Below are positions 670 to 23,603 of a DNA stretch of 23,603 nucleotides, piece after piece (positions within the stretch are counted from its first letter, which is position 1; each line of letters starts with the position of its first letter). The DNA is from a virus, in IMG/VR virus record IMGVR_UViG_3300004461_000415, positions 1-23,603 of that record. The stretch is one strand, 5' to 3'. A model generated the notes under the pieces. The model ran no database searches, was not told the origin of the DNA, and saw only the letters and a list, made by a program, of their open reading frames with translations. A program made the translations under genes and the position numbers.

Positions 670-670
670 T

Positions 671-5134: not shown

Positions 5135-5137
5135 CCT

Positions 5138-5168
5138 ATTGCATTATTAAATTTTTTGTTTATATTTA
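5138..5168 (+). promoter_or_regulatory. Host-type promoter
   Basis: ATTG at 5138-5141, 19 nt spacer, TATATTTA at 5161-5168. The -7 box plus downstream bases 5161-5185 differ at one position from 2041-2065 of the promoter before the gene at 2080. It should transcribe the gene block from 5197 onwards. Confidence 0.7.
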
Positions 5169-5196
5169 CAATATTATTAATCAAAACAGAACAGAT

Positions 5197-8518: not shown

Positions 8519-8528
8519 ACAGATTAAC

Positions 8529-9852: not shown

Positions 9853-9856
9853 ATCT

Positions 9857-10126
9857 ATGGATGGCAGACAAAAAAACGGAGGGATAAGACAAGGAGCAGG
9901 ACGCCCTAAAAAGGCAGATGAAGAAAAGTTGATTGAAAAACTAGATGCATTAATTGATTCTGATAAGGTAGTAATGAAACTAGGTGAGATGTGTCTTAAA
10001 GGAGATTCAAGAGCATTAACACTTTACTTCAATTACAGGTATGGAAAGCCAAAAGAGAAAATAGATATATCTGCAAGTGAAGGTTTAAATGTCAACTTTA
10101 AGGATTTGATTCAGTTTAGTGATTAA
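9857..10126 (+). CDS. terS: Terminase small subunit-like
   Basis: 89 aa with the N-terminal signature KNGGIRQGAGRPKKADEEKL, an AT-hook-like basic segment common at the start of phage small terminase subunits. A helical part (LIDSDKVVMKLGEMCLKGDSRALTLYFNYRYGKPKEKI) follows, like the oligomerisation core. It overlaps the large subunit gene by 8 bp. Together they would recognise and cut phage DNA for packaging. It is shorter than many TerS proteins. Confidence 0.75.
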   Translation: MDGRQKNGGIRQGAGRPKKADEEKLIEKLDALIDSDKVVMKLGEMCLKGDSRALTLYFNYRYGKPKEKIDISASEGLNVNFKDLIQFSD

Positions 10127-11327
10127 GGTAAACCCGAAGTATTCACCAATCTCAAAATCGGATTCTAGGTATTTTATTGTAACAGGTGGAAGAGGTAGTG
10201 GTAAATCCTTTTCCATCAATTTGATGTTGTGCCTTTTAACCTATGAGAAAGGACACGTTATCCTTTTCAGTAGGTACACCTTAACATCTGCTTATGTGTC
10301 TATAATTCCCGAATTTATAGAGAAGTTGGAACTGCTTAATATTTTTGATCATTTCCAAATAACAAAGGATGAGATACAAAATAGAATATCGGGTAGCAAG
10401 ATTATCTTCAAGGGAATTAAAACCTCTTCGGGTGATCAAACTGCTAATCTAAAGTCATTGCAAGGTGTCACTACATTTGTACTAGATGAGGCTGAAGAAC
10501 TAACCAACGAGGACACATTCGATAAAATAGATTTATCTGTACGTTCTCAGATTCAAACGAATAGGATTATCTTGATTCTAAACCCAACAACAAAAGAACA
10601 TTGGATTTACCAAAGGTTCTTCCAAGACAAAGGAATACAGGAAGGGGTAAACACTAGCAAAGAGGATGTGACATATATTCACACAACCTACCTTGACAAC
10701 ATTCAAAACCTTTCAGAAAGTTACCTATCCCAAATACAAAACATTAGGGTAAGACGTCCCAATAAATACAAGCATCAAATACTAGGGGGATGGTTAGATA
10801 AAGCCGAAGGTGTTATTTTCGATAATTGGAAAATAGGAGAATTTAAAAAGATAGGTGTTTCTGTATTTGGGCAAGATTATGGATTTGCATCAGATGAATC
10901 CACGCTGATTGAAACCAATATCGACACAACAAATAAAATCATCTATCTAAGGGAATGTTTTTATATTAAACATCTAACCACATCAGAGATTGCAGAACTT
11001 AATTTAAAACACGCAGGTGATGCTTTAATAATAGGGGATAGTGCAGAACCTAGATTGATAAATGAACTAAAATCTAAGGGTAGTAAAATAGTTGCATCTG
11101 TAAAAGGACAAGGTTCTATTACCTATGGAATATCCTTGATTCAAGATTATGATTTAATAGTATCTGAAGATTCTGTTAATCTGATTAAAGAATTGAATAA
11201 CTATTGTTGGCTAGAAAAAAAGTCAAAAACGCCCCAAGATTCCCATAATCACCTTTTAGACGCCCTCAGATATTCAGTAACCTATCAATTACAAAATCCA
11301 AATAGGGGAAAATATCATGTTCGATAA
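10119..11327 (+). CDS. terL: Terminase large subunit
   Basis: 402 aa packaging motor and nuclease, PBSX/Terminase_3-like. Walker A GGRGSGKS is at 23-30 and Walker B TTFVLDEAEEL near 120-130. A coupling motif LNPT is near 154. The RNase H-like nuclease has its acidic residues in FGQDYGFASD (about 251), IIGDSAEP (about 307) and HNHLLDALRY (about 377). It starts with GTG at 10119, inside the end of terS; length and motif spacing fit the family. Unusually, no portal gene follows; the downstream genes are two small unknowns and the tail module. Confidence 0.92.
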   Translation: MIKVNPKYSPISKSDSRYFIVTGGRGSGKSFSINLMLCLLTYEKGHVILFSRYTLTSAYVSIIPEFIEKLELLNIFDHFQITKDEIQNRISGSKIIFKGIKTSSGDQTANLKSLQGVTTFVLDEAEELTNEDTFDKIDLSVRSQIQTNRIILILNPTTKEHWIYQRFFQDKGIQEGVNTSKEDVTYIHTTYLDNIQNLSESYLSQIQNIRVRRPNKYKHQILGGWLDKAEGVIFDNWKIGEFKKIGVSVFGQDYGFASDESTLIETNIDTTNKIIYLRECFYIKHLTTSEIAELNLKHAGDALIIGDSAEPRLINELKSKGSKIVASVKGQGSITYGISLIQDYDLIVSEDSVNLIKELNNYCWLEKKSKTPQDSHNHLLDALRYSVTYQLQNPNRGKYHVR

Positions 11328-11334
11328 TAAAGTT

Positions 11335-11365
11335 TTTGTTTTATAAGTTTATTAGTGTATCTTGC
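11335..11365 (+). promoter_or_regulatory. Host-type promoter after the terminase genes
   Basis: TTTG at 11335-11338, 19 nt spacer, TATCTTGC at 11358-11365 (two mismatches to TAnnTTTG). The leader AATCAATAAACAAACAAA before the ATG at 11389 resembles the leader of the gene at 2080. Confidence 0.6.
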
Positions 11366-11388
11366 CTTTAAATCAATAAACAAACAAA

Positions 11389-11727
11389 ATGAAAGACTTA
11401 TTTACAGATCAAGAACTAGAAGAACTGCTGAAGGATTTAAAACCCATAGACATTCACATGGGTGATTCAGAGATTCACACAGAAGAAATTACTTGGAGTG
11501 TGGGATGCATTGATGTTTATGCTGACATTATTTGTGTTAGGAAAACCATTAGCGATCCCGAAACATACGAAGAATATGGATATATGAGAACTGATGATGG
11601 TGTTTACGAATATATTTTTGATATTGATGAAATGGCTATATATTGCGATGATGAAGATTGCTCAACATACGAGCAAGAATTAAGAGTTGTCATCCCTAAA
11701 ATTAAATCTTTAATATCAATAGCATGA
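11389..11727 (+). CDS. Acidic protein (112 aa), function unknown
   Basis: Starts MKDLFTDQELEELLKDLKP and has a very acidic composition, including DIDEMAIYCDDEDCSTYEQE. Predicted mixed alpha/beta; acidity and size recall DNA-mimic or anti-restriction proteins, but no family signature supports that. It lies behind its own host-type promoter, apart from the structural operon, suggesting early or middle expression. The next gene is coupled by ATGA. Confidence 0.7.
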   Translation: MKDLFTDQELEELLKDLKPIDIHMGDSEIHTEEITWSVGCIDVYADIICVRKTISDPETYEEYGYMRTDDGVYEYIFDIDEMAIYCDDEDCSTYEQELRVVIPKIKSLISIA

Positions 11728-12008
11728 ACAAGATACAGAACACACATGATGCGGAATATTGGAATAATGCACATCTTTGTTCCGAGATACTTAAAAAATG
11801 GAATAAGATCAAACCCGAAAACGAAGAGATCAAGGCAGTAATGACTGCACTTGGAGAGATGTCTTTTTATGTTGCTAGGTTGCATCACGATGCACAGGCA
11901 AGGGATAAGGTTCTGCAAGAGTACAAATTAGAAAGAAACAAATGGTGTAAAAGAGCAATGGATGCAAAACGCAGATATGACAACGTAAAGAAGTTAGAAG
12001 GCATTTAA
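11724..12008 (+). CDS. Helical protein (94 aa), function unknown
   Basis: MNKIQNTHDAEYWNNAHLCS, then long charged helices (VMTALGEMSFYVARLHHDAQ, ERNKWCKRAMDAKRRYDNVK). No family recognised. It overlaps the upstream acidic gene by ATGA and is followed 24 bp later by a strong terminator, so these two genes form one short transcription unit. Confidence 0.65.
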   Translation: MNKIQNTHDAEYWNNAHLCSEILKKWNKIKPENEEIKAVMTALGEMSFYVARLHHDAQARDKVLQEYKLERNKWCKRAMDAKRRYDNVKKLEGI

Positions 12009-12032
12009 AACTTTTGTTTAGTTGGTTAATTG

Positions 12033-12061
12033 GGGTAGTCAGAAATGGCTGCCCTTTTTTT
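12033..12061 (+). terminator. Rho-independent terminator
   Basis: GGGTAGTC (12033-12040) pairs with GGCTGCCC (12047-12054; two G-U) around a 6 nt loop, followed by seven T. It separates the unit 11389-12008 from the late tail operon. Confidence 0.8.
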
Positions 12062-12086
12062 GTGTTTAAAAATCACTTGGTTTTTG

Positions 12087-12102
12087 CGTTATATAATTAT
12101 GA
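12087..12102 (+). promoter_or_regulatory. Late element CGTTATAT-N3-TATGA, copy 1
   Basis: CGTTATAT AAT TATGA, 26 nt after a terminator; the embedded ATG (12099) is the chaperone start codon. Distance from the motif's first C to ATG is 12 nt, as in all four copies. Probably a late promoter giving a leaderless or nearly leaderless mRNA. Confidence 0.65.
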
Positions 12103-12755
12103 AAGCAAGTGTAACAGTTCCAAGTCTATCTGAAATTACATTAGAACAGTATCAAAGATTCTTGAAAGTTCAGCAAATCAACAAGGATGATGAGTATATC
12201 ATTCAGTTGAAAATGATTGAAATATTCTGCAACGTAGATTTTAAGGATGCAAGGAATATCAAATTTACAGATGTCGAAAGAATCATAGAAAAGTTAACAG
12301 AAACTTTCCAAGAGAAACCTAATCTTATTAGAACATTCAAAATGGATGGGGTTGAATATGGGTTTATTCCTTCGATGGAAGAAATGACTTTTGGTGAATA
12401 CATTGATGTTGACACATATCTCCCACAAGAGGATCAAATGCATCTTGCAATGAACGTGTTGTATCGTCCTATTACAAGCAAGAAAGCAGGTAAATATTCT
12501 ATTGAGGATTATGACATAAACACAAAAGAAAGAATGAAACAAATGCCTTTGAACGTGATGTTGTCAGCCACTTTTTTTTTGCAAAATTTAGGCTTGGAGT
12601 TACTGAGCGTTACGAACAATTATTTACAGGAGGAAATGGAGAAACAACAACTCTCTCCGCAGGATTTGGAAAAAAATGGGGATGGTATTCAAGCATCTAT
12701 GCTCTCGCTAAAGGAGATATTGAAAGATTTGAAGGTGTCACTTCCCTTGAATTAG
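12099..12755 (+). CDS. Tail assembly chaperone, G-like product
   Basis: 218 aa, starting MKASVTVPSLSEITLEQYQR. Position before the tail genes and tape measure, together with a second frame that continues it (see 12572-12838), identifies it as the G-like member of a frameshifted chaperone pair that coats the tape measure protein during tail assembly. ATG 12099 is chosen because it sits in the conserved late element; an in-frame ATG at 12045 would translate the terminator and promoter. Slippery candidates are the run of nine T at 12572-12580 and A_AAA_AAT at 12671-12677. Confidence 0.75.
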   Translation: MKASVTVPSLSEITLEQYQRFLKVQQINKDDEYIIQLKMIEIFCNVDFKDARNIKFTDVERIIEKLTETFQEKPNLIRTFKMDGVEYGFIPSMEEMTFGEYIDVDTYLPQEDQMHLAMNVLYRPITSKKAGKYSIEDYDINTKERMKQMPLNVMLSATFFLQNLGLELLSVTNNYLQEEMEKQQLSPQDLEKNGDGIQASMLSLKEILKDLKVSLPLN

Positions 12756-12838
12756 ATCAATGTTTAACGATGCTCACATTCATGAAAGAGAAGAACGAAG
12801 TGGAAGCACAACAAATAAAAAATAAACAAAGAAGATGA
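12572..12838 (+). CDS. -1 frame extension of the tail chaperone (GT-like)
   Basis: This frame is open to TGA at 12836-12838 but has no usable start until very late. It encodes a protein-like segment FGKKWGWYSSIYALAKGDIE, then LDQCLTMLTFMKEKNEVEA, resembling the conserved WGW-containing half of Bacteroidota phage tail chaperones. It can be reached from the 12099 gene by a -1 shift at T_TTT_TTT (12572-12578) or at A_AAA_AAT (12671-12677). The second site would join the frames directly before WGW. Its TGA overlaps the next ATG (ATGA, 12835-12838), good evidence that ribosomes terminate here. A -1 programmed shift is conserved in tail chaperones (lambda G/GT). Confidence 0.75.
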   Translation, partial: FFFAKFRLGVTERYEQLFTGGNGETTTLSAGFGKKWGWYSSIYALAKGDIERFEGVTSLELDQCLTMLTFMKEKNEVEAQQIKNKQRR

Positions 12839-13314
12839 GCCAAGGAATCAGAGGTTTTTATCAAGTAACTAAAACACTAGAAGATCAATTACTTCTAGAT
12901 GTAAACTGTAAAACTGTTACCACAGGTGACATATCAAATGTCAACTTGAACAAGCAGGATATCTTCCCCTTGTCGCATATCTTGATAAATAGTGTGACAC
13001 AAAGTGATGACAATGGAAGTGGTTTATACACCTTTAACATTAGCATCCTTTCAATGGACATTGTAGATCAAAGCAAAGAACCAACAACAGATATCTTCAG
13101 AGGTAACGACAATACTCAAGATATTCTAAACACACAAATGTCTGTGAGCAACAAGGTAATCCAACTAATGAGGGGAGGCACTTTGTTTCAGAATATGTAC
13201 CAAGTAAGGGGAGATGCTACATTTGAATTTTTTACTGAGAGATTCGAAAACGAATTAGCAGGAGTAACGGCAACTTTCAACCTAACCATCTACAACGATA
13301 TATACATTTGTTAA
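12835..13314 (+). CDS. Virion or tail completion protein (159 aa)
   Basis: Starts MSQGIRGFYQVTKTLEDQLL. A run NVNLNKQDIFPLSHILINSV, NTQDILNTQMSVSNKVIQL and a C-terminus FENELAGVTATFNLTIYNDIYIC resemble a conserved protein of flavobacterial phages. Size and position between the chaperone and a gp10-like gene suit a tail terminator or neck protein; this is inferred. Coupled by ATGA to the frameshifted chaperone and by TAATG to the next gene. Confidence 0.65.
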   Translation: MSQGIRGFYQVTKTLEDQLLLDVNCKTVTTGDISNVNLNKQDIFPLSHILINSVTQSDDNGSGLYTFNISILSMDIVDQSKEPTTDIFRGNDNTQDILNTQMSVSNKVIQLMRGGTLFQNMYQVRGDATFEFFTERFENELAGVTATFNLTIYNDIYIC

Positions 13315-13844
13315 TGGATTATCTAGAATTAAATAAAGCATTAAATGGTTTTGGCAAATATGTCATTCAACAATCAAGATCAAACTTGACAAAGGGAAAA
13401 AAGAACTCTACAAGTGATTTGTACAATTCTTTAAAGTATGACATAACCGAAGAACAAGGTAATTTTCTTTTAGATTTTCTGATGGAAGATTATGGTGATT
13501 TTGTAGATCAAGGTGTAAGAGGTGCAGGTAGTAGTTCAAATAATAGAACATCACCATTTAAGTTTGGTAGTGGTACAGGCAAAAAAGGAGGCTTAACCAA
13601 AGGCATTGAGAAGTGGATTAAGCAAAAACCCATTAAACAATGGAAGGATAAAAAGACAGGCAAATTCCTATCTTATAAATCAATGAAATTCTTGATTGCT
13701 AGGAGTATATACAACAAGGGAACTAAACCAAGTCTGTTCTTCACAAAGCCTTTCTACTCTGCTTTTAAACGCTTACCTATTGAGATAGTAAAGGCATTTA
13801 AATTAGACATTGAAAAAGCAATAGTTCTAGGAATAAAAAAATAA
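13314..13844 (+). CDS. HK97 gp10-like head-tail or tail completion protein
   Basis: 176 aa, basic. The segment YGDFVDQGVRG followed by a glycine/serine linker, GIEKWIKQKPIKQW, then the C-terminal KGTKPSLFFTKPF is the layout of HK97 gp10-like and tail-completion proteins. ATG 13314 shares a base with the upstream TAA (TAATG) and is preferred over the TTG two codons earlier. It probably acts at the head-tail junction. Confidence 0.65.
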   Translation: MDYLELNKALNGFGKYVIQQSRSNLTKGKKNSTSDLYNSLKYDITEEQGNFLLDFLMEDYGDFVDQGVRGAGSSSNNRTSPFKFGSGTGKKGGLTKGIEKWIKQKPIKQWKDKKTGKFLSYKSMKFLIARSIYNKGTKPSLFFTKPFYSAFKRLPIEIVKAFKLDIEKAIVLGIKK

Positions 13845-13846
13845 TT

Positions 13847-14833
13847 ATGTCAAATATATTAGTACGATCACCAAGATTCCAAACCTATACAATGGGTTCA
13901 TCATCCAACAGTATAAAATTAGAACTTTATGTTGCAGGTGTTTTGAGATACACTATTATTAAAAATGCTGCACCTAGTAGTTTTGTTACTTTTGAAATTG
14001 CTGAATTAATCAGAGATTATATTATTCAAACTTTTGATGGAAATTATACAACTGCAACTGTATCAACTGCATCTTCAAATGTAAATCAGTACACAGGACA
14101 AAATGCTACAGGAACAACGCAGGGAGCAGTTCAAATAGTAGATCATACTGCCTTCAATGGTTACGGAACATTCATGGAAGGAGCAAATCCAACAATAACT
14201 TCTCCTTTGTGGATGGTTTCAAAAGATGTGATTAAAAATGGTTACTATGTTTATTATCCTTTAAACACAAGTGGAAAGATTCCAATCATAACAAGTACAG
14301 GAAGTGTTAGTTATAAGACATTTGCAACAGATGCCACAACTGCAACTCTTACAGGTGCTGACACAATGAACATTGTTAGGATTGATTGCACTAAATACGG
14401 AGATGGTAAAAAAATTACATTCGTGAATAAGTTTGGAGCGTTACAAGATTTGTGGTTCTCTTTAAAAAGTGTGAAAGCAACAGAATCATCAAGGGAAACA
14501 TATAACTCAAATACAATAAGTACATCAAGCGGATCGGCTACATACTCAGTAAACGCACCAACCAAAAGTGTATTTAATAAAACTGCAAAGCAAAAAATAA
14601 CATTAAGTAGTGGGTATTATCCCGAAGGTGCTAATCCTTATTTTGAGGAATTGCTTTTATCTGATCAAGTATGGTTGACACAACCCGATCCCTACGATCC
14701 CTCCACAGAACAAGTTGTACCTGTGATTATTACAACATCTTCATTCACATATAAGACTAGCCTAAACGATAGGTTAATTGATTATGTGATGGAATTTGAA
14801 ATGGCATTTGATTACATAAATAATGTTAGATAA
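13847..14833 (+). CDS. Structural protein, probably tail (328 aa)
   Basis: Rich in T, S, N and Y, beta-strand-like throughout. It has a conserved-looking core ITFVNKFGALQDLWFSLKS (about 190-208) and a C-terminus LNDRLIDYVMEFEMAFDYI. Similar proteins sit between the neck and baseplate genes of flavobacterial phages; a distal-tail, baseplate or fibre-attachment role is likely. No catalytic motif seen. The TAA overlaps the next ATG (TAATG). Confidence 0.65.
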   Translation: MSNILVRSPRFQTYTMGSSSNSIKLELYVAGVLRYTIIKNAAPSSFVTFEIAELIRDYIIQTFDGNYTTATVSTASSNVNQYTGQNATGTTQGAVQIVDHTAFNGYGTFMEGANPTITSPLWMVSKDVIKNGYYVYYPLNTSGKIPIITSTGSVSYKTFATDATTATLTGADTMNIVRIDCTKYGDGKKITFVNKFGALQDLWFSLKSVKATESSRETYNSNTISTSSGSATYSVNAPTKSVFNKTAKQKITLSSGYYPEGANPYFEELLLSDQVWLTQPDPYDPSTEQVVPVIITTSSFTYKTSLNDRLIDYVMEFEMAFDYINNVR

Positions 14834-16992
14834 TGCAGAAGGTTCAGATATATGTTGATTCAACAAGACTTGATTTATTCAAAGATGAAACAATCACTTT
14901 AACGCAATCTTTAAAAAACGTTAAACAGGTTGATAAAATATTCACAGAATTTACTCAAACCTTTTCAGTTCCTGCATCACCAACAAATAATATTTTATTT
15001 CAACATTATTATAACTTTGACATAGTAGGGGGTTTTGATGCTAGAAGAAAAGAACCTGCATCTATTGAGTTAAATTATATTCCTTTTAAAAAGGGGTTGA
15101 TTCGTTTAGATGGTGTTGATCTTAAAGATAATAAAGCCTATGCTTATAGAATTACATTTTTTGGTGAAACCATAAACTTAAAAGATGTTCTTGGAAGTGA
15201 TCAATTAGATAATCTTGATTTAACTGCTTATGATTTAACCTATGACTACGACACAGTAAGAGGTAAGATGAATGTTGACACAACTTCTAACGATGTTGTT
15301 GTGCCTTTAATAACGCATACTTCTCCATTGCTTTATGATTCGGGTTCACAAATAGCAGGTTCAAATAATATGTTTTACAACCCATCTACAAATCAAGGTG
15401 TTTTGTGGAGTGAATTAAAATACGCATTAAGAATATCCAAAATAGTTGATGCAATTCAAACTAAATATTTAACTCCTTTAGGTATTAGTTTTTCAGATGA
15501 TTTTTTCAATGCAACAAATGAAGATTATTATGGATTATTTATGTGGTTGCACAGAAAGGTGGGGAATGTTATTCCCGAATCACAAAATGTAAACGAATAT
15601 AATTTACCAATTTCTACTTGGGTGTATCAAGGTGCAGGAACACCAACCTTGCAAATGAATAGTGGAACAACTTTGCAAATATCATCTCTTTATGGGACAA
15701 ATAAACCTGCTAGTTGGATTTATGAATTTAGTGTAAGTTTAACACCTGTTGATACAAATCACGAATACAGATTTGAAATTAGACAAGGAGGATCATCTTG
15801 GTATAATTCGGGAATTGTTACAGGAAACTTAAATGTTACCATTAACGATCTACCCACAGACGTAACTTCAAGCCAATATACATTTGTTATTACATCACAA
15901 GAAAGTACTTTACAATTTAGTGATGTGTCATTAACTACTGAAGGATATTATACACCTTATGGTAGTACATCAACAGTAACTTATGAAGATGATTGGAGTG
16001 CTACCTCCACAGGTAATATAGGTATTAGCGTTAATTTTGATTTTTTAATAAATGAACAAATTCCCGAACAGAAAATCATTGATTTCTTAACAGGATTATT
16101 TAAAACTTTTAACCTAGTTGCATATTATCAAGATTCAAAAATAGTTGTTCAAACCTATGATGATTATTTTGCTAGTTTAGATGAAGGTTTATGGCAACAA
16201 CAACAAGAAGAATGGCAAGATGAATTAAGAAAATGGAATGAAATAGGAAGTGGAATTATAGGTAGATATTCCATTGATGAATTTATGGATGTTAATTCTA
16301 GTCAAATAAATGTTGGATTACCTTATAAACAAATTGATTTTAAATACGAAGGTACAGGTTCATTTCTTGCTCAACAATTTAACCAAATGAATAATCTTGT
16401 TTGGGGTGAGTTAAGATTTACCTTAAATAATCAAATCTATGATGCACCTAGTGAAACCTATGAAGTAAAAATTCCTTTTGAACATATGTTATTCGAAAGG
16501 TTAATAAATCAAAATAGTGGATCAAATACTAATTTGATGTATGGGTATTCAGTAAATGAAACACAACAACCTTATATTGGTAAACCTTTAATTTTTTACC
16601 CATTAAGACAAAGTCAATTAGCACAAGTTTCTGTTCGTGACACATCAGAACACGATCCATTAAGTTCAGTAATACTTCCTTCAAATAGTGTTTCTCTTTA
16701 TTCAAGTATAAGCACAAGTAATATCAATTTCAATTTAGAAATAAATGAATTTAGTCAAGACACATCTTTTTCTAATACACTTTTTGAAAAGTATTATAAT
16801 AATTTTATTTCTGAATCTTTCAACACAAAAAGAAGATTGATAAGAGTAAAGGCATATTTACCATTGAACATTTTGTACAACTTAAAATTGAACAATGTGA
16901 TTGAAATTAATAATCAAGATTATAAAATAAATTCAATGACAACTAATTTTCAAACAGGAGAAACAAGTTTTGAATTAATAAACATAGTATGA
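14833..16992 (+). CDS. Large tail/baseplate protein (719 aa)
   Basis: The N-terminal part reads VQIYVDSTRLDLFKDETITL, then FTEFTQTFSVPASPTNNILF and FKKGLIRLDGVDLKDNKAYA. These are features I associate with a conserved baseplate/tail-tip protein of Bacteroidota phages. The middle is a beta-rich, S/T/N-rich stretch like a carbohydrate-binding or jelly-roll insert. The C-terminus (LKLNNVIEINNQDYKINSMT) looks like a baseplate hub strand pattern. It probably forms part of the tail tip and host recognition. It ends in an ATGA overlap. Confidence 0.7.
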   Translation: MQKVQIYVDSTRLDLFKDETITLTQSLKNVKQVDKIFTEFTQTFSVPASPTNNILFQHYYNFDIVGGFDARRKEPASIELNYIPFKKGLIRLDGVDLKDNKAYAYRITFFGETINLKDVLGSDQLDNLDLTAYDLTYDYDTVRGKMNVDTTSNDVVVPLITHTSPLLYDSGSQIAGSNNMFYNPSTNQGVLWSELKYALRISKIVDAIQTKYLTPLGISFSDDFFNATNEDYYGLFMWLHRKVGNVIPESQNVNEYNLPISTWVYQGAGTPTLQMNSGTTLQISSLYGTNKPASWIYEFSVSLTPVDTNHEYRFEIRQGGSSWYNSGIVTGNLNVTINDLPTDVTSSQYTFVITSQESTLQFSDVSLTTEGYYTPYGSTSTVTYEDDWSATSTGNIGISVNFDFLINEQIPEQKIIDFLTGLFKTFNLVAYYQDSKIVVQTYDDYFASLDEGLWQQQQEEWQDELRKWNEIGSGIIGRYSIDEFMDVNSSQINVGLPYKQIDFKYEGTGSFLAQQFNQMNNLVWGELRFTLNNQIYDAPSETYEVKIPFEHMLFERLINQNSGSNTNLMYGYSVNETQQPYIGKPLIFYPLRQSQLAQVSVRDTSEHDPLSSVILPSNSVSLYSSISTSNINFNLEINEFSQDTSFSNTLFEKYYNNFISESFNTKRRLIRVKAYLPLNILYNLKLNNVIEINNQDYKINSMTTNFQTGETSFELINIV

Positions 16993-17135
16993 TCAAGATG
17001 ATACTTAAAATGCTAGAAATAGCAGATGGACAAACAGAGAATATTAAAATAGCACAAGGCAAATATCTATATCCAAAAACATTTAAAGGTGCTTGGAAAG
17101 GTTTTAAAAATGAAGTAAGATGGCAGAAAAAATAA
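16989..17135 (+). CDS. Small basic protein (48 aa) before the tape measure gene
   Basis: MIKMILKMLEIADGQTENIK, then YPKTFKGAWKGFKNEVRWQK: basic, with an N-terminal amphipathic helix. It is coupled to the baseplate-like gene by ATGA and overlaps the tape measure start by 16 bp, filling the only gap between the two. Function unknown; a tail-tip accessory role is possible from location only. Confidence 0.5.
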   Translation: MIKMILKMLEIADGQTENIKIAQGKYLYPKTFKGAWKGFKNEVRWQKK

Positions 17136-18892
17136 CAGTAGGTTTAGAGGTTGACAGTAAAAAAGCGGAAAAGAATGTTGACAATCTAACCGATGGAATA
17201 AAAGATTTAACCAAGGTTGTTGAAAAAGGTAATGAGCAAACTGCAGCAGGGTTAAAAAGCATTGAAGAAACATCTAAATCAACAGGTGAAGGTGTTAAGG
17301 GAATAGGCAATGCCATAAAAGCAGCAGGTGTAGGATTGTTTCTAGTTGCCTTAGAAAGCATGAAAGAATTATTCATGCAAAATCAAGTGATTGCCGATGG
17401 GGTAAGTAGTGCCTTTGAAGGATTGGCTTTGGTGTTTAACGATGTCTTTGGATTATTGACAGGTGGATTACAGAGTGTTGAAAAAATCGGAAATGCCTTC
17501 GATAAGTACTTCGGCAAACCAATAGAAACTGCGGTTAAATCATTTGAGAAATTTGGTGATGCGTTCAGCAAGATATTCGGTGGTGATTTTAGTGGTGCAT
17601 TAGATGATATTAATCTTGGAATGACAGGATTACAAGCAGCCATTTCTCAAACAGGAGATGGATTTGCAGAGGCAACATCAGATGCAGTAGATTATGTTGT
17701 TGAAATAAAAGAGGCAGCAGTTGCCAATGTTCAACTTGCTAAATCAGCAGAAATAGCAGAAGCCACAAATGCAGGATTGCTTGAAAAGTACGATAGACAA
17801 GCAGAGCAACAAAGACAAATCAGAGATGAGGAAAGAAACTCTATTGAGGATCGTATTGCAGCCAATAATAAACTAGGTGAAGTTCTAGAAGAACAGAATA
17901 CTGTAATGCTTAAAAACGCAAATATCTCTTTAAGAGCAGCACAGATTGCCTTTGACAAAAACAAATCAACAGAGAATGAGGTTGCTTTAATTACTGCAAA
18001 GAATGAAGTGATGGCAGTAGAGGCTACTGTTGAAGGTTTTAGATCAGAACAAAAAGCAAATGATCTAGCACTTGACAGGGAAAGAATTGAACTAATAAAT
18101 ACTGAAAAAGAATCTGTTTCTACTTTAGGGTTTGAAAAAAGAAAATTTGATGCAGAGCAAGAAGAAAGTGATATACTTAGAATTGAGAAACTAAGAAAAA
18201 TAAATGAAGAAGAAAAAATAGCACAAGAAACAAGGCTACAAGGAATTATAGATGAGGCTAATATTGGAACACAAGCAAGAGTGGATGCAGAGATTGCTTT
18301 AAATGAATTTCTAGAAGGTAACTATCAAGAGAGAATAAACTTAGACACAGAATTAAAAGATGCAGAACAGGCGAATTTAGATGCAAGGCTATCTGCTCAA
18401 TTAACTTATGTAAATGCATTGGGTGGAGTAACTGATGCATTAGGAGGATTATTTAAACAAGGATCAAAAGAAGCAAAGATAGCAGCGTTAACAAGTATTG
18501 CTATTAATACTGCAACAGGATTCATTCAAGGATTAGATATTGCTCAAAAAGGCGCACAAGCAACAGGAGCGGCTGCACCATTTGCCTTTCCTATTTTTTA
18601 TGCCACACAAGTTGCTGCGGTTTTATCTGCTGCATCAAGAGCAAAAGGGATATTATCATCTTCAAATTCATCAAGCGGATCATCTGTAAGTGGAATATCA
18701 ACATCAACATCTCCAAGTGCAACGCAATTTGAATCACAAGCACCTGCATTTAACATAGTAGGACAAAGCGGAGTAAATCAAATAGCAGATGTTGTAGCAT
18801 CACAAGCACCTGTTAAAGCGTATGTAGTTGCAAACGATGTAACAACTGCACAAAGCCTTGAGAGAAACATTGTGGAAGGAGCAACATTATAG
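17120..18892 (+). CDS. Tail tape measure protein
   Basis: 590 aa. N-terminal helices (KAEKNVDNLTDGIKDLTKVV), hydrophobic helices near 65-80 (AGVGLFLVALESM) and a long charged coiled coil in the middle (about 195-430). An alanine/glycine-rich hydrophobic segment near 455-500 (AAAPFAFPIFYATQVAAVLS) and a Ser/Gly-rich C-terminal part complete the usual plan. At the usual ~1.5 angstrom per residue it would span roughly 90 nm of tail. It lies at the end of the tail module, followed by a hairpin terminator and a new late element. Confidence 0.85.
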   Translation: MAEKITVGLEVDSKKAEKNVDNLTDGIKDLTKVVEKGNEQTAAGLKSIEETSKSTGEGVKGIGNAIKAAGVGLFLVALESMKELFMQNQVIADGVSSAFEGLALVFNDVFGLLTGGLQSVEKIGNAFDKYFGKPIETAVKSFEKFGDAFSKIFGGDFSGALDDINLGMTGLQAAISQTGDGFAEATSDAVDYVVEIKEAAVANVQLAKSAEIAEATNAGLLEKYDRQAEQQRQIRDEERNSIEDRIAANNKLGEVLEEQNTVMLKNANISLRAAQIAFDKNKSTENEVALITAKNEVMAVEATVEGFRSEQKANDLALDRERIELINTEKESVSTLGFEKRKFDAEQEESDILRIEKLRKINEEEKIAQETRLQGIIDEANIGTQARVDAEIALNEFLEGNYQERINLDTELKDAEQANLDARLSAQLTYVNALGGVTDALGGLFKQGSKEAKIAALTSIAINTATGFIQGLDIAQKGAQATGAAAPFAFPIFYATQVAAVLSAASRAKGILSSSNSSSGSSVSGISTSTSPSATQFESQAPAFNIVGQSGVNQIADVVASQAPVKAYVVANDVTTAQSLERNIVEGATL

Positions 18893-18948
18893 GGTTCGAG
18901 ATTGTACAATAAGGTAACGCTTACTGTTCTGTTATCGAACCTTATTTT
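18893..18948 (+). terminator. Long two-part hairpin / terminator after the tape measure gene
   Basis: GGTTCGA (18893-18899) pairs perfectly with TCGAACC (18935-18941). Inside, ACAATAAG (18906-18913) pairs with CTTACTGT (18920-18927) with one mismatch and a 6 nt loop. TTATTTT follows. It closes the tail operon just before the second late element. Confidence 0.6.
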
Positions 18949-18974
18949 AAAAAACAAAAAACAAGAAAATTAAC

Positions 18975-18990
18975 CGTTATATAAATATGA
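18975..18990 (+). promoter_or_regulatory. Late element CGTTATAT-N3-TATGA, copy 2
   Basis: CGTTATAT AAA TATGA; the ATG (18987) starts the XkdF-like protease gene. It follows the hairpin at 18893-18948, so it lies at a transcription unit boundary. Confidence 0.65.
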
Positions 18991-19883
18991 AAATTGTAGA
19001 ATTAGTTTTGGATGACAATGAAGAGAGTGGTATTGAAGCCATCTCTATTGTTGAATCACCTGCTATTGAATCAGATTTTGTAGCCTTAAAATCAGATGAA
19101 GTAAAACTAGCAGAAGTTGACACAGAGAAAAAAATATTGATGGGTGCTTTGTTAATTCCAAACAAACCCATTTACAGAAAAACAGAAGGTGAAGAATATT
19201 ATATTTATTTCTCAAAGGATACAGTTTTAAAAGCATCCCAAAGATACCTAACAAATGGATATCAAGGTAATTCTACATTAGAGCATTCTGATAACTTACA
19301 AGGATTGACATTAGTTGAAAGTTGGATAGTTGAAGATGATAAGTTTGACAAATCAAGAAAGTATGATATGAATGTTCCAATAGGGACTTGGATGGGTACT
19401 GTAAAAGTAAACAATGAAGAGGTTTGGAATGATTATGTTAAAACAGGAAAAGTAAAAGGATTCAGTATAGAAGGCTTTTTTGCCGATAAAATTAAAGCAT
19501 CAGAAATGAAAAAAGAAGAACAAGAAGCAGATTTATTGCTTAGTAAAATAACAAGCATTGTCAAGGGTGAAAGAGTAGAATTGGGTTTAGTAGATGATTT
19601 AAAAAATCTACAAAAACAATCAAGTAGTGCTTATACTGATTATATTAATGACATGGATGCATCTAAGGGTTTTATGTCTAAAGCAATAGATAAATCAGCA
19701 AAAGCAGCCAAAATGTTAAAAGAAGAAATTAAACTTTATAACAATATAGAAAGCACATATAAGGAACTAGGTATTGATATGCCAAGTGAATTAAAAAAAG
19801 TAACACCAATTCCTGCTCTGCAAATAACAGAAAAAGATTTATCTATGATGCAGTCATTATATAAGCAATTTAAGGTTAAATAA
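18987..19883 (+). CDS. XkdF-like prohead protease with helical C-terminal extension
   Basis: 298 aa. Residues about 1-172 match the XkdF-type (S78-like) phage head maturation protease: LEHSDNLQGLTLVESWIVED, then VPIGTWMGTVKVNNEEVWND and GKVKGFSIEGFF. The likely catalytic His and Ser are in LEHS and GFSIEG. After about residue 180 comes an extra, strongly helical domain (KGERVELGLVDDLKNLQKQS to the end) that resembles the next gene's product. The protease should process scaffold and capsid precursors. Expression starts at a late element. Confidence 0.8.
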   Translation: MKIVELVLDDNEESGIEAISIVESPAIESDFVALKSDEVKLAEVDTEKKILMGALLIPNKPIYRKTEGEEYYIYFSKDTVLKASQRYLTNGYQGNSTLEHSDNLQGLTLVESWIVEDDKFDKSRKYDMNVPIGTWMGTVKVNNEEVWNDYVKTGKVKGFSIEGFFADKIKASEMKKEEQEADLLLSKITSIVKGERVELGLVDDLKNLQKQSSSAYTDYINDMDASKGFMSKAIDKSAKAAKMLKEEIKLYNNIESTYKELGIDMPSELKKVTPIPALQITEKDLSMMQSLYKQFKVK

Positions 19884-19895
19884 AACACAAATAAA

Positions 19896-20285
19896 ATGAA
19901 TAAAAGAGAATTAAGTAAAGTATTCAGCAGACTAGCAAAAGAGGAAGTTAATCTAGGAACTCATAAGGTTGAATTGGCTGCTAGAAAAATTAGTTCAATA
20001 TTATCTGATGCAAATAAATTAGATAATAAAATGAAAGCAATGGAATCTAAAATTGACAAATCATTTTTGCAATATAAAAATAATTATGATGAATGGATTG
20101 GTGGATTAAATGACATAGGATCAAGTGCAGATAAAATAGAGACTGATTTATATAAAGTATTTGATATTGCTAAGGAAATAGGTGTTGATCCTAAATCAAT
20201 AGATGGTTTTTCAAAAACCTCTGATGTAATAACTAAGTTATACAAACTTATCTCATCTTCAAAAAAATTATATCCATCAGTTTAA
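19896..20285 (+). CDS. Helical protein (129 aa), possible paralogue of the protease C-terminal domain
   Basis: Lysine-rich and helical throughout: HKVELAARKISSILSDANKL, NYDEWIGGLNDIGSSADKIE, DIAKEIGVDPKSI, then LYKLISS. The same order of landmarks (VEL, long helices, KELGID/KEIGVD, a final LYK helix) is found in the C-terminal extension of the upstream protease. Function unknown; location suggests a head assembly or internal head protein. Confidence 0.65.
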   Translation: MNKRELSKVFSRLAKEEVNLGTHKVELAARKISSILSDANKLDNKMKAMESKIDKSFLQYKNNYDEWIGGLNDIGSSADKIETDLYKVFDIAKEIGVDPKSIDGFSKTSDVITKLYKLISSSKKLYPSV

Positions 20286-20287
20286 AA

Positions 20288-20509
20288 ATGCAAGGAATTA
20301 AAAGAAAGAATTACATTCCTAATCCTACATCTCCAAGAGGAGGTAGAAGAGCGTGTTTGTGTCCCGATAATACCTATTCAATAAAGTGTTGTGATGGTGA
20401 TAATTGGGCACAAGGCATTGGTGTTATTACAGGAGTGGAAGGTAATTTTTTAACTAAGGAAGATACTGATTTGATTCTTCAAGAGAATAACAATAAAATT
20501 ATAGTATAA
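20288..20509 (+). CDS. Small cysteine-rich protein (73 aa)
   Basis: Sequence PRGGRRACLCPDNTYSIKCC is followed by DGDNWAQGIG, then an aliphatic/acidic C-terminal part. The CLC...CC set could bind a metal ion. It resembles short proteins seen in the head module of flavobacterial phages, function unknown. The TAA overlaps the next ATG (TAATG). Confidence 0.65.
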   Translation: MQGIKRKNYIPNPTSPRGGRRACLCPDNTYSIKCCDGDNWAQGIGVITGVEGNFLTKEDTDLILQENNNKIIV

Positions 20510-20967
20510 TGGCAAATTCTAAAATATCTGCTTTACCAATAGCAACTGCATTACAAGGTGATGAGGCATTTGCATTGGTTCAAAGTGGTACAACCAAAAG
20601 AACTACTTTAAGTGATATAGACAATTACGTTATCGCAACACACATAACTGTGGCAGATGGTACTACTGTAAATTTATCAGATAGCACCTATACTAGTTCT
20701 ACATTAATAAAGTTCACATTTACTGCAACAGGGGGAGTAGAGAATGCAACGGTTAATTTACCCGATGTAAATGGAACAAACACAAACAGATTAATAAAGT
20801 TTATCTCTGACACAACATTTACATCTAATACTAGGGTTAGTTTAACTCCCATTAGTGGAGCAACCATAGACGGTTCATCATCTCCTTATATAATCAACAA
20901 AGAATACGAAGGTGTTCAGTTGTGGAGCGATGGAACAGAGTGGTTCATAGTTCAAAAGAAAGCATGA
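20509..20967 (+). CDS. Head fibre or decoration-like protein (152 aa)
   Basis: Begins MANSKISALPIATALQGDEA with FALVQSGTTKRTTLSDI, the 'KISxL...ALVQxGTTKKxTxxD' opening found on many phage fibre and decoration proteins. The remainder is beta-rich T/S/N sequence ending GVQLWSDGTEWFIVQKKA. Position between the protease and scaffold genes suggests a head surface fibre; tail fibre is the alternative. Confidence 0.65.
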   Translation: MANSKISALPIATALQGDEAFALVQSGTTKRTTLSDIDNYVIATHITVADGTTVNLSDSTYTSSTLIKFTFTATGGVENATVNLPDVNGTNTNRLIKFISDTTFTSNTRVSLTPISGATIDGSSSPYIINKEYEGVQLWSDGTEWFIVQKKA

Positions 20968-20991
20968 AAATGCAAAATAAATTTTAACAAT

Positions 20992-21007
20992 CGTTATATG
21001 AATATGA
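20992..21007 (+). promoter_or_regulatory. Late element CGTTATAT-N3-TATGA, copy 3
   Basis: CGTTATAT GAA TATGA; the ATG (21004) starts the scaffold gene. Only a small GCAT-GAAA-ATGC hairpin (20962-20973) lies between it and the preceding gene. Confidence 0.65.
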
Positions 21008-21594
21008 AATCAAATGAAGTTTTAAACCAAATCAAAACGGTTTTGGGTATTGAGGTTAAACTTGAAACTCAAAAGTTGGAAAATGGTACTGTTTTAGAAG
21101 CAGAATCATTTGAAAAAGGGAGTGATATATTTATCATGACTGATGATGAAAAGGTAGCACTTCCTGTTGGTGAGTATATGCTTGAAGATTCAAGGCTTTT
21201 AGTTGTTGAAGAAGAAGGTAAAATTGCTGATGTTAGAGAAGTGAGTGATGAAGTTCCTCAAAAAGAAGAAACAGAAGATTTAGTTGAAGAAGATTTGACT
21301 GAAGAAAGCCTAGAAGAAGAGGCTGATGTTGCTGATTGGAAAGGAATGGAAATAAGAATTAAAAATCTTGAGGATGCCATTGCGGATTTAAAAGCCGATA
21401 AAATGGAAGCAAGTAAAGTAGAAAAAGAAGTTGAAGAAAAACTTGAAGAAAAACTTTCTGCAGAACCTGCTGCCAAAGCAATCAAGCATAATCCCGAAGG
21501 TGAATCAAGTAAACAAATAAAAATGCACATTTCTCCTAACCGAGTGATGAGTACAAGAGATAGAGTTTTTCAAAAAATATCAAATTTAAAATAA
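21004..21594 (+). CDS. Scaffolding protein
   Basis: 196 aa, very acidic and helical: a small N-terminal domain (LENGTVLEAESFEKGSDIFI, VALPVGEYMLEDSRLLVVEE), a Glu-rich middle (EETEDLVEEDLTEESLEEEA), a coiled coil (RIKNLEDAIADLKADKMEAS) and a basic C-terminal tail (MSTRDRVFQKISNLK). This composition and the position directly before the major capsid gene identify a scaffold. ATG 21004 lies in the conserved late element, so it is preferred over ATG 20998 two codons upstream. Confidence 0.8.
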   Translation: MKSNEVLNQIKTVLGIEVKLETQKLENGTVLEAESFEKGSDIFIMTDDEKVALPVGEYMLEDSRLLVVEEEGKIADVREVSDEVPQKEETEDLVEEDLTEESLEEEADVADWKGMEIRIKNLEDAIADLKADKMEASKVEKEVEEKLEEKLSAEPAAKAIKHNPEGESSKQIKMHISPNRVMSTRDRVFQKISNLK

Positions 21595-21595
21595 A

Positions 21596-22501
21596 ATGGC
21601 AGTAAACATAACAAGCACATATGCAGGAGAATTTGCAGGGGAATATATCTCTGCTGCTCTTCTAAGCGGTAACACTATTGCAAATGGTGGAATCGAAGTG
21701 AAACCAAATATCAAATACAAAGAGGTTATCAAAAAGGTAGCAACTAGTGGTTTGGTAGTAGATGCAACTTGTGATTTCACAAGTGCAGGATCAGTTACAT
21801 TAACTGAAAGAATTATTCAACCCGAATATTTCCAAGTAAATCAAGAGATGTGTTTAACACCTTTCCAATCTGATTGGGAGGCTGCTCAAATGGGATACTC
21901 TGCTTTTGATCAATTACCTCCTAAGTTCAGTGATTTTATTATAGGGCAATTTGCCTCAGAAGTCGCTGCTAAGACAGAATCTAACATTTGGAGTGGTGCA
22001 AACGCTACAACAGGTGAGTTTGATGGTTTTGTAACACTTATGACTGCTGATGCTGATGTAATCGATGTAGCAGCAGGTGCAGTTGTTGTTGGAAACGTAG
22101 TTACTGAAATGCAGAAAATAGTTGATGCTATTCCTGCTACTTTATTTGGTAAGGAAGATTTACACATCTATGTATCACAAAACATTGCAAAGGCTTATGT
22201 TGGTGCAATGGGAGCATTAGGAAGTGGTATTGACAACAGAGGAGCGTTGTGGTATCAGAATGGCGCACCTTTATCATTCGGTGGTATTCCGTTATTCGTA
22301 GCAAATGGATTAGGAAATAATCAAGCAGTTGCTGCTGAGAAGTCTAATCTCTTTTTTGGAACTTCTCTTTTGAGTGATCAAAATGAATGCAAGTTGCTGG
22401 ATATGAGGGATTTAGACGGCTCACAAAATGTAAGATTGGTGATGCGATTTGCAGCAGCCGTACAGTACGGAATTGGTTCTGACATCGTTCTATACTCTTA
22501 A
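21596..22501 (+). CDS. Major capsid protein, HK97-fold type
   Basis: 301 aa, Ala/Gly-rich, starting MAVNITSTYAGEFAGEYISA. It has a long alpha segment near 120 (FIIGQFASEVAAKTESNIWSG), a strand/loop segment LHIYVSQNIAKAYVGAMG, GGIPLFVANGLG, and a C-terminal NVRLVMRFAAAVQYGIGSDI typical of the capsid P-domain end. Location after the scaffold and the strong terminator behind it support the call. If cleaved, the XkdF-like protease would process it or the scaffold. Confidence 0.82.
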   Translation: MAVNITSTYAGEFAGEYISAALLSGNTIANGGIEVKPNIKYKEVIKKVATSGLVVDATCDFTSAGSVTLTERIIQPEYFQVNQEMCLTPFQSDWEAAQMGYSAFDQLPPKFSDFIIGQFASEVAAKTESNIWSGANATTGEFDGFVTLMTADADVIDVAAGAVVVGNVVTEMQKIVDAIPATLFGKEDLHIYVSQNIAKAYVGAMGALGSGIDNRGALWYQNGAPLSFGGIPLFVANGLGNNQAVAAEKSNLFFGTSLLSDQNECKLLDMRDLDGSQNVRLVMRFAAAVQYGIGSDIVLYS

Positions 22502-22520
22502 TAAATTTTAAACCATAAGA

Positions 22521-22558
22521 AAGGGGTAGGTGGTTATGTCTATCTACCCCTTTTTTTT
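22521..22558 (+). terminator. Rho-independent terminator after the capsid gene
   Basis: GGGGTAGGT (22523-22531) pairs with ATCTACCCC (22542-22550; one G-U), flanked by A and T, then eight T. A strong terminator fits a highly expressed capsid operon; the next gene may rely on read-through. Confidence 0.85.
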
Positions 22559-22572
22559 AAAATATAAAAAAT

Positions 22573-23112
22573 ATGGCATGTAATGTATCAGCAGGAAGAG
22601 TACTTCCTTGCAAAGCAGGATTCGGAGGAATTAAGGCTGCTTACTTTTTTGATCTAGATGGATTAGGAACATTGACATATACAGATGGAGTTATTACTAC
22701 AATAGCAGGTACTCCTACTGTTTATGAGTACGATGTAAAAAATACATCTTCACTAGAAACTGCAATTAACAGTTCTAGGGAAACAGGAACAACGTTCTAT
22801 GAGCAAACGCTTAGTTTAACTTTAACTTATCTAGATGCACCAACACAAGAGCAAATTAAATTACTTGCTTGGGGACGTCCTAGTGTAGCGGTTGAAGATT
22901 ATTATGGCAATATGTTCATAGTAGGTTTGGAAAATGGTATGGAATTAAATTCGGGGACTATTGGCACAGGAACACAACCTTCTGATTTGAGTGGATTCAC
23001 AATGACATTGGTAGGGCAAGAACCCGATCCTGCAACATTTATCACTTCAACATTAATCACAGAAGCAACTCAAGGAACAAAAATTGATCCTACTTTGACT
23101 GTAACTCCTTAA
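22573..23112 (+). CDS. Major tail tube-like protein (179 aa)
   Basis: Starts MACNVSAGRVLPCKAGFGGI. Beta-rich; contains EQTLSLTLTYLDAPTQEQIK and a C-terminal GTGTQPSDLSGFTMTLVGQE, recalling the strand pattern of tail tube proteins of siphoviruses. Location next to the capsid gene rather than in the tail module is unusual; a head decoration protein is the alternative. It is flanked by terminators on both sides. Confidence 0.6.
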   Translation: MACNVSAGRVLPCKAGFGGIKAAYFFDLDGLGTLTYTDGVITTIAGTPTVYEYDVKNTSSLETAINSSRETGTTFYEQTLSLTLTYLDAPTQEQIKLLAWGRPSVAVEDYYGNMFIVGLENGMELNSGTIGTGTQPSDLSGFTMTLVGQEPDPATFITSTLITEATQGTKIDPTLTVTP

Positions 23113-23132
23113 TTATTTATTTTCTTCTAGTG

Positions 23133-23165
23133 AAAGCATCTCTTTTTAGGGGGTGCTTTTTTTTT
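23133..23165 (+). terminator. Rho-independent terminator
   Basis: AAAGCATCTC (23133-23142) pairs with GGGGTGCTTT (23150-23159; G-U pairs tolerated) around a 7 nt loop, followed by a run of T to 23165. Confidence 0.8.
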
Positions 23166-23178
23166 GTCTTATTTAGTT

Positions 23179-23195
23179 GACAGTACACTACTGTC
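23179..23195 (+). promoter_or_regulatory. Perfect inverted repeat, operator candidate
   Basis: GACAGTA-CAC-TACTGTC: 7 bp arms around a 3 nt spacer, 33 nt before the start of the 53 aa gene. No T-run follows, so it is more like a protein-binding site than a terminator. Confidence 0.45.
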
Positions 23196-23227
23196 CATTC
23201 TTTTTAACCTTAAAATTGTCTATAAAA

Positions 23228-23389
23228 ATGCAAGAATTACACAATCAAATACAAAATTTAGAATCTCAATTAACAGGTAATATGTTCACAGACATGGAAA
23301 TAAAGGATAAAATCCATAATCTTAAAATGAAATTAAATGGTTCTAAACCTAGTTCTTCTGAAATTGATTGTGTCGGGTGTGGATCATAA
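23228..23389 (+). CDS. Small coiled-coil protein with CxxC end (53 aa)
   Basis: MQELHNQIQNLESQLTGNMF, then IKDKIHNLKMKLNG, and a C-terminus ending DCVGCGS. The heptad pattern suggests a helical hairpin; the CVGC pair could bind metal or form a disulfide. ATG 23228 is preferred over a TTG at 23177, which would translate the inverted repeat. Function unknown. Confidence 0.6.
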   Translation: MQELHNQIQNLESQLTGNMFTDMEIKDKIHNLKMKLNGSKPSSSEIDCVGCGS

Positions 23390-23410
23390 AACAAAACCCT
23401 ATTTTTTTTG

Positions 23411-23426
23411 CGTTATATAGGTATGA
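23411..23426 (+). promoter_or_regulatory. Late element CGTTATAT-N3-TATGA, copy 4
   Basis: CGTTATAT AGG TATGA; the ATG (23423) starts the last gene of the window. Preceded by a T-run and G (TTTTTTGCGTTATAT), as in copy 1. Confidence 0.65.
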
Positions 23427-23603
23427 TTGTATTAACAACATCAGCATCTGCACAAACATTTAAGGTAATACCAAGAGATTATACTTTAACGGCATTTACA
23501 ATGAGCATAAGAGATGATAGTACAAACGTAACTGTGACATATAATATTACAGGTGTCACTACAAGCGGAAATTACAGAACATTTCAAAACACATTCTCAC
23601 CTG
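23423..23603 (+). CDS. Structural-type protein, N-terminal part (runs off window)
   Basis: 60 residues visible: MIVLTTSASAQTFKVIPRDY, then TMSIRDDSTNVTVTYNITGV. No stop before the window edge. Beta-rich, T/S/N composition like the neighbouring virion proteins, and expressed from a late element, so a structural (neck or tail) role is likely. The early TTSASAQT stretch is not a convincing signal peptide. Confidence 0.6.
   Translation, partial: MIVLTTSASAQTFKVIPRDYTLTAFTMSIRDDSTNVTVTYNITGVTTSGNYRTFQNTFSP

Follow-up and report, generated by a model that had tools for sequence, protein, structure and literature searches.

Candidate late promoters abutting virion gene starts, and an ECF-type sigma factor as their proposed reader, in an IMG/VR phage record

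The 23,603-base phage record IMGVR_UViG_3300004461_000415 from IMG/VR (positions 1 to 23,603; hereafter the window) contains a short repeat, CGTTATATNNNTATGA, placed just before the start codons of genes in its virion region. The repeat occurs exactly four times, at 12087, 18975, 20992 and 23411, always on the + (coding) strand, compared with 0.01 copies expected in dinucleotide shuffles, and none of 100 shuffles reached four. With two mismatches allowed, the motif lacking its final A (CGTTATATNNNTATG) gave 5 matches in the window versus 2.58 expected, so the significance of the repeat rests on the exact copies. In all four, the C of the box lies 12 nucleotides (nt) from the A of an ATG that has T before it and A after it. 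An earlier note on this DNA had drawn attention to the four copies, identical in their first eight bases, to their fixed distance from ATG and to the T and A flanks, and these features were borne out. It had also stated that no copy precedes early genes and, indeed, none of the genes at 1-11,400 has one. The bare octamer CGTTATAT is present five times; the fifth, at 8677, lies inside the gene 8529-8711 and has no ATG at 12 nt.

The octamer and a second box upstream of it form a two-box element, (A/G)CAAAA-N14-CGTTATAT, of -35-type and -10-type appearance. The -10-type boxes of copies 1 to 4 lie on the + strand at 12087-12094 (with the ATG of gene 12099 placed 12 nt from the C), 18975-18982, 20992-20999 and 23411-23418. 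The -35-type boxes, on the same strand, read CAAAAA at 18955-18960 for copy 2 (20 nt from the C of CGTT), CAAAAT at 20973-20978 for copy 3 (19 nt) and CAAAA at 23392-23396 for copy 4 (19 nt). Copy 1 has a degenerate box, AAAAA at 12068-12072, without the C; it scored 14.1 with a position weight matrix when the box was shifted.

For copies 1 and 3 the longest open reading frame (ORF) begins too early, at 12045 upstream of the promoter and at 20998 inside the box, and orthologues place the starts at 12099 and 21004. The gene after copy 1 (12099-12755, + strand; phrog_32199, function unknown) is a probable tail-assembly chaperone gene with a -1 frameshift site at 12572-12580. Nine consecutive T make up this site, after which the -1 frame stays open for 89 codons, to 12838; in 9 of 10 genomes including the window, a T9-T11 run occupies the equivalent position and is followed by a -1 frame open for 87-92 codons, and the tenth contig ends. 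The pattern probably reflects programmed -1 frameshifting of a tail-assembly chaperone. The remaining copies precede, all on the + strand, a gene for a prohead protease (18987-19883; XkdF-like peptidase S78, Pfam PF14550, E 2.5e-13), a scaffold-like gene (21004-21594; start set by orthologues) and a gene of unknown function that runs off the contig (23423-23603). The scaffold-like gene lies directly before a capsid-type gene (21596-22501) and has a weak match (E 3.1e-4) to phrog_24921, a family also matched by the protease. The earlier view that all four copies precede virion genes holds for the protease by Pfam and is supported for 12099 by the chaperone-like T-run frameshift and for 21004 by its place before the capsid-type gene. 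Three copies had been said to follow a terminator or hairpin. Copies 1 and 2 do so directly, after an intrinsic-terminator-like hairpin with a T tract (12032-12055, + strand, z -3.6) and a hairpin at 18890-18944 (+ strand, z -4.1), but the terminator-like site nearest to copy 4, at 23132-23160, precedes it by about 250 nt with a small ORF between, and a hairpin scan before copy 3 found none that stood out.

Among GenBank phages, megablast with the window gave no match, and the nearest isolates by capsid protein are the Nonlabens (Persicivirga) phages P12024S/L, with 32.5% identity. A scan for relatives of one capsid variant gave at least 600 matches. We took the best 80 loci by capsid protein and the best 80 by the sigma-like protein described below and read the DNA 5' of the orthologues of the four genes. 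From 210 matches, 20 without a readable start were removed, leaving 190 orthologous starts; 42 of these had no CG(T/A)TA within 24 nt of the ATG and were also removed, and the other 148 gave 69 unique sites. CAAA was found 19 nt from CG(T/A)TA at 53 of these sites and 20 nt at 3, and was missing at 13. The distance from C to ATG was 12 nt at 38 sites, 13 at 17, 14 at 1, 15 at 2 and 16 at 11. When 60 sites of the closer clade were picked for CGTTA, columns -19 to -15 read C (53), A (60), A (60), A (60) and A (55). Phages with capsids 65-69% identical often retain CGTTATAT before the same genes while the position of the ATG shifts. Fixed spacing between the boxes together with variable spacing to the ATG argues for a promoter and not a fused translation signal. 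ECF-type (extracytoplasmic function) promoters are recognised by -35 and -10 boxes at rigid spacing, as counted here for CAAA and CG(T/A)TA and, judged from the sequences, this spacing is the signature of a -35/-10 promoter.

Contact with the ATG appears to be common but not obligatory. In relative G008, the protease gene has its nearest promoter-like site, CGTTATGTA with CAAA at 19 nt, as far as 87 nt before the ATG, and four other intergenic copies lie 23-46 nt upstream of an ORF. Twelve weight-matrix sites lacking an ATG nearby were inspected: 5 lie inside an ORF, 5 are 23-87 nt before one, and 2 have no 40-codon ORF within 300 nt. The motif search over relatives that the earlier note had suggested as a check did find the element before virion genes of related phages, but the 12-nt spacing was not conserved, the distance being mostly 12-16 nt and sometimes 18-87 nt. 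The combined promoter and translation start signal proposed in that note, with an obligatory 12-nt fusion, is not supported, because the ATG distance varies while the boxes keep their own spacing. GTTA counts upstream of ATG, taken over 37 related genomes, were highest at 11 nt (85, versus mostly 20-55 elsewhere) and were too noisy per genome. Fixed 6-mer discovery picked out CGTTAA at a distance of 12 nt in 5 genes of P12024S; of 20 further genomes, most gave no clear result. A crude per-genome tally of motif classes was discarded because clades overlap by chance.

We scanned viral contigs for CAAAAT-N13-CGTTATATA with no requirement for a gene or ATG, and in the same way for a control with a permuted -10 box, CTGTATATA. 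Each scan matched at least 120 stretches, and the counts below refer to the 120 listed for each; a site was called inside an ORF if the ORF had at least 60 codons, and an ATG had to open at least 30 codons. The motif gave 155 sites, of which 137 lie 12-16 nt before an ATG and 11 inside ORFs. The control gave 120 sites, 105 of them inside ORFs, with 1 at 12-16 nt and 2 more at 11 nt. Two or more sites were present in 33 motif stretches versus none of the control stretches, and a relative of a window virion or packaging protein was encoded in 109 versus 9; no control stretch encoded the sigma factor. The listed motif matches comprise 139 unique contexts, in which the first ATG lies at 12 nt (66), 13 (28), 14 (3), 15 (14), 16 (11), 18 (1), 26 (3) or 36 nt (1); 6 more have it at 56-118 nt and 6 have none within 150 nt, one of these being cut by the contig end. 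The distribution has a sharp left edge, with no first ATG at 8-11 nt, and the base before the ATG is T in 66 of the 66 contexts at 12 nt.

A similar arrangement is present in an isolated phage. In P12024S, AACAAA and then CGTTAAT, 11-12 nt before the ATG, precede gp05, gp08, gp35, gp41, gp44 and gp45, and the distance from CAAA to C is 18 nt at five sites and 17 at gp41. A scan for this element gave 7 matches, the seventh of which (12578) does not fit, compared with a mean of 0.45 and a maximum of 2 for permuted cores. Two of the genes lie at recognisable places (gp35 before terminase, gp05 before portal) and the others are hypothetical; gp01 is preceded by CGTTACTATAGT without a clear CAAA box. 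The P12024S record annotates gp33 as containing Sigma-70 region 2. Searching with gp33 fetched seven loci, of which L227 is P12024L itself; all six others have the same element, at one site or several; its CAAA is nearly always 18 nt from the C, and the ATG is 12-15 nt away. The Nonlabens phages P12024S/L (Inhavirus) thus share with the window a sigma gene (gp33 in S) and a two-box element before genes of the packaging/virion block, but P12024S has CGTTAAT as its -10 box and a distance of 18 nt between boxes (17 in one case).

Other clades have further variants of the box. G013 and G019 carry AGTTATCAT at comparable places. G026 (L195/L196) has CGATATATA and not CGTTATATA at the protease, scaffold and 23423-type sites and at a fourth intergenic copy (major strand, positions 4533, 6326, 9309 and 27035). 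Such a coordinated change suggests a common reader and co-evolution of the boxes with the phage's own sigma factor. In more distant sigma-bearing relatives, TTTTTAAATAAA lies just before ORFs at four sites of G043 (major strand, 137, 2345, 23672 and 30813) and TTTTTAAAATAAA just before ORFs in G038 (major strand, 7039, 14189 and 19519), each with ACAA-type boxes upstream; these may represent a further promoter class.

The proposed reader of the element is encoded at 4306-4785 (+ strand), in the non-virion gene block, as a 159-amino-acid protein with regions 2 and 4 of an ECF-type sigma factor, assigned from profile, model and Foldseek searches. Its single-sequence matches are weak (Sigma70_r2, E 0.016; phrog_1740 sigma factor, E 0.039), and 15 of 26 family members match Sigma70_r2 at E up to 0.1 (best, 1.4e-5). 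A profile built from 26 relatives and compared with the PDB matched the ECF sigma factors SigE (E 1.4e-4), SigW (positions 17-157, E 0.0036) and SigL (E 0.01). An AlphaFold model from 25 alignment rows (mean pLDDT 82.4, pTM 0.46) consists of two helical domains and a linker, and ECF sigma factors, identified by their titles or by the profile matches, took ranks 1-15 in a Foldseek search of the PDB (best E 2.6e-4, probability 1.00). ECF factors are distinguished by a region 2 with a DxVQE-type motif, a helix-turn-helix in region 4 and the lack of region 3, and the 159-amino-acid protein has this composition. By resemblance, it is an ECF-type sigma factor, and it is predicted to bind core RNA polymerase and direct initiation. 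A phmmer search of the PDB with P12024S gp33 alone found nothing relevant.

The sigma profile matched 27 of 38 and 10 of 17 relative records in two sets, the misses being fragments of less than 22 kb except for G013 (26.6 kb). Among the matches listed, the capsid-fetched records of at least 26.5 kb number 16, and 15 of them encode the sigma factor. It is also present in 10 of 13 motif-fetched records versus 1 of 18 control-fetched ones (Fisher p 6e-5); three lack it, namely G061 (27.9 kb) and two large contigs, of 195 and 87 kb, with no virion relative in the stretches fetched. A scan of genome contigs with the sigma profile returned one distant contig from a metagenome-assembled genome.

The register of the boxes can be compared with that of known ECF promoters. 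Promoters of Mycobacterium tuberculosis (Mtb) sigmaH have GGAAYA at -34 to -29, an optimal spacer of 17 bp and G-11, T-10 and T-9 (PMC6411747). In the window, the G of CGTT lies 11 nt from the A of ATG. As an ECF holoenzyme starts about 11 nt downstream of the G of GTT, +1 would fall on the A of ATG in the window copies; we predict that the virion mRNAs of the window are leaderless and start on this A, and the predicted leader in relatives is mostly 0-4 nt. At 5 of the 6 P12024S sites AACA is in the register of the sigmaH GGAACA, and the window type is 1 bp further upstream. The earlier expectation that transcription starts at or near the ATG fits both the ECF register, with G at -11, and the sharp edge of the ATG distribution (66 of 139 contexts at 12 nt, 0 at 8-11), while the exact start is a prediction. 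In Flavobacterium psychrophilum, one motif assigned to ECF factors carries a CGT box at -10, and leaderless transcripts make up only 5.5% of the mRNAs examined (PMC9723704). In Lactococcus cremoris, leaders of 4-14 nt were reportedly not seen (PMC10986495); this gap parallels the near absence of ATGs 17-25 nt from the C but not the 11 contexts at 16 nt.

Taken together, we consider it likely that the four elements are promoters of the virion (late) operons read by a phage ECF sigma factor and that they give leaderless or near-leaderless mRNAs. The phage sigma factor as reader, the late timing and the exact start site are inferred. Host RNA polymerase carrying the product of 4306-4785 would read (A/G)CAAAA - 14 nt - CGTTATAT, with sigma region 4 on the CAAAA box and region 2 on CGTT. 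The sigma gene, lying in the non-virion block, would presumably be transcribed first by the host primary sigma factor, and its product would then open the virion operons later. The idea in the earlier note of a phage-specific promoter with CGTTATAT as a -10-type box is well supported by a second box at fixed distance, by recurrence before virion genes of related phages and by a phage-encoded ECF sigma factor. The host is most likely a marine bacterium of the Flavobacteria type. It is quite possible, though we stop short of calling it probable, that in a large siphophage-type lineage infecting marine Bacteroidota the entire virion programme depends on an ECF sigma factor with promoters designed for starting on the start codon, so that capsid and tail mRNAs are systematically leaderless (0-4 nt).

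Promoters of the host type gave a different picture. The TAnnTTTG -7 box of the Bacteroidota primary sigma factor is absent from the four copies. The earlier note had assigned early genes TTTG-N19-TAnnTTTG promoters, but strict TTTG-N18-20-TAnnTTTG occurs once in the window, away from the copies, versus 1.21 expected, and is not enriched. The relaxed form TTG-N18-21-TAnnTTT occurs 4 times on the + strand and 16 times on the - strand versus 6.3 expected; matches lie at gene gaps near 1871, 2019, 5139 and 11335, and these counts are not above expectation. Early transcription by a host sigma factor is therefore an assumption. Escherichia coli-type sigma70 promoters were rejected as a candidate, with 51 found and 51.0 expected in shuffles of 11800-23603.

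Several observations weigh against a promoter read by the phage sigma factor. The -35 box of copy 1 is degenerate, and boxes of the window type are spaced 1 bp wider than is optimal for sigmaH. The protein scores below the Pfam Sigma70_r2 cut-off (15.4 versus 24 bits), and the Foldseek TM-scores of its model are low, about 0.4. Of the 190 orthologous starts, 42 lack CG(T/A)TA; many of these come from clades that have other boxes, but they include the protease start of L006, which is near-identical and reads CGTTTAATA there. Boxes also differ between genes within clade L048 (CGTTATATA, CGTTACATA, CGTTACTTA and CGTTACAAT). Some weight-matrix matches lie inside ORFs. Just 1 of the 120 listed motif-fetched stretches, which are short, encodes the sigma factor itself, and sigma relatives in G028, G030-G034 and G037 come without element copies above control. 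Co-occurrence of sigma factor and motif partly reflects common descent, because both are inherited together, and the scan contexts are likewise related by descent, so that site counts are not independent events.

The late promoter might instead be read by a host alternative (ECF) sigma factor, or some other phage protein might activate it, with the phage sigma factor acting elsewhere. In favour of this, the fragments G013 (26.6 kb, AGTTATC-type sites) and G061 (2 sites) have the element without the sigma gene, and F. psychrophilum has seven ECF sigma factors, one with a motif containing a CGT box at -10 (PMC9723704). We regard this as unlikely given that 15 of the 16 near-complete capsid-fetched relatives among the matches listed encode the phage sigma factor and that the boxes vary by phage clade (CGTTATATA, CGATATATA, CGTTAAT and AGTTATCAT), as would suit a reader evolving with the phage, even if some clades mix them. 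More plausible, though less likely than our preferred explanation, is a promoter that starts a few nt off the predicted position, so that short leaders or processing occur and leaderlessness is not the rule; this differs from our preferred explanation in the leader alone. With +1 at 12 nt from the C, leaders of 1-4 nt would be present in 56 of the 122 unique contexts with an ATG at 12-16 nt, and some copies lie 23-87 nt from an ORF, but the left edge of the distribution, the invariant T at -1 and the register match with sigmaH speak for a start on the A.

A translation start signal that recruits the flavobacterial ribosome in the place of a Shine-Dalgarno sequence, and is no promoter, would account for the exact 12 nt in all four window copies, and flavobacteria lack Shine-Dalgarno sequences (PMC9723704). 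It is very improbable: the ATG moves to 12-16 and up to 87 nt in relatives while the CAAAA-CGTT distance is constant, other genes in the same gene blocks of the window have no motif, and two copies come directly after hairpins. A chance or strain-specific repeat, for which the AT-rich genome and the near-chance count with two mismatches might be cited, can practically be dismissed in view of four observed versus 0.01 expected copies, the recurrence in many related phages and a positional constraint that is absent from the permuted control.

The preferred explanation, promoters read by a phage ECF sigma factor, has parallels in known phages. Phages phiEco32 and 7-11 encode a sigma factor with middle/late promoters (PMC4331800), which has been called an ECF sigma factor (PMC7881722); the phiEco32 consensus is given as TAATGTATA, and phage ECF promoters are described as extended -10 elements without a recognisable -35 (PMC5333181). 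As proposed for the window, structural genes are transcribed from promoters of the phage-encoded sigma factor and part of the other genes from host promoters, and the window sigma factor should work as the phiEco32-type factors do. The window system differs from phiEco32 in its conserved -35-type CAAAA box at fixed spacing, in the Bacteroidota as known hosts and in a promoter that abuts the ATG. The late promoters of phage T4, read by the sigma-like factor gp55, likewise serve late genes and consist of a -10 box only (TATAAATA) whose use depends on the sliding clamp. Canonical ECF promoters such as those of Mtb sigmaH (PMC6411747) share with the present element two boxes, rigid spacing and GTT in the -10 region, but the present element has CAAAA in place of GGAAC, an AT-rich extension after GTT, spacing 1 bp longer in the window and a phage regulon. 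The F. psychrophilum motif SM6 (PMC9723704), compared on CGT only, resembles the window in having a CGT box in the -10 region, in its attribution to an ECF factor and in the host phylum; it differs in serving host type IX secretion system and envelope genes. Among the literature matches listed, judged by title and opening of the abstract and with most subscription journals outside this scope, there was no description of the promoter motif or the sigma family, and the searched passages of flavobacterial-phage literature do not mention promoters.

For a phage group that is common but almost uncultured, the element would offer a late-gene switch open to testing, and an isolate with the same arrangement, P12024S, exists. 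It also gives a predicted function to a sigma-like protein that has no confident single-sequence family match and would add a phage ECF promoter whose -35 box is clear, in contrast to phiEco32-type descriptions. If the mRNAs are leaderless, the phages would be a natural system for leaderless initiation on Bacteroidota ribosomes; if systematically so, late genes would be set apart in translation initiation and not just in transcription, within hosts that make few leaderless mRNAs.

Some further features of these genomes were recorded. GGCC is absent from all eight genomes examined (the window, G001, G002, G003, G004, G007, G020 and P12024S), with 9-32 expected in each. CATG is depleted in the window (26 versus 77.8 expected) and absent from G004 and G007, and GATC is absent from G007; the shortage of these sites is probably due to restriction-site avoidance. 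TGACACA occurs 18 times on the + strand of the window and 2 times on the - strand, a bias that perhaps reflects codon usage. By eye, the non-virion block also contains a cytosine-C5 DNA methyltransferase-like ORF (6388-7461) and a PAPS-reductase-like ORF (7715-8518).

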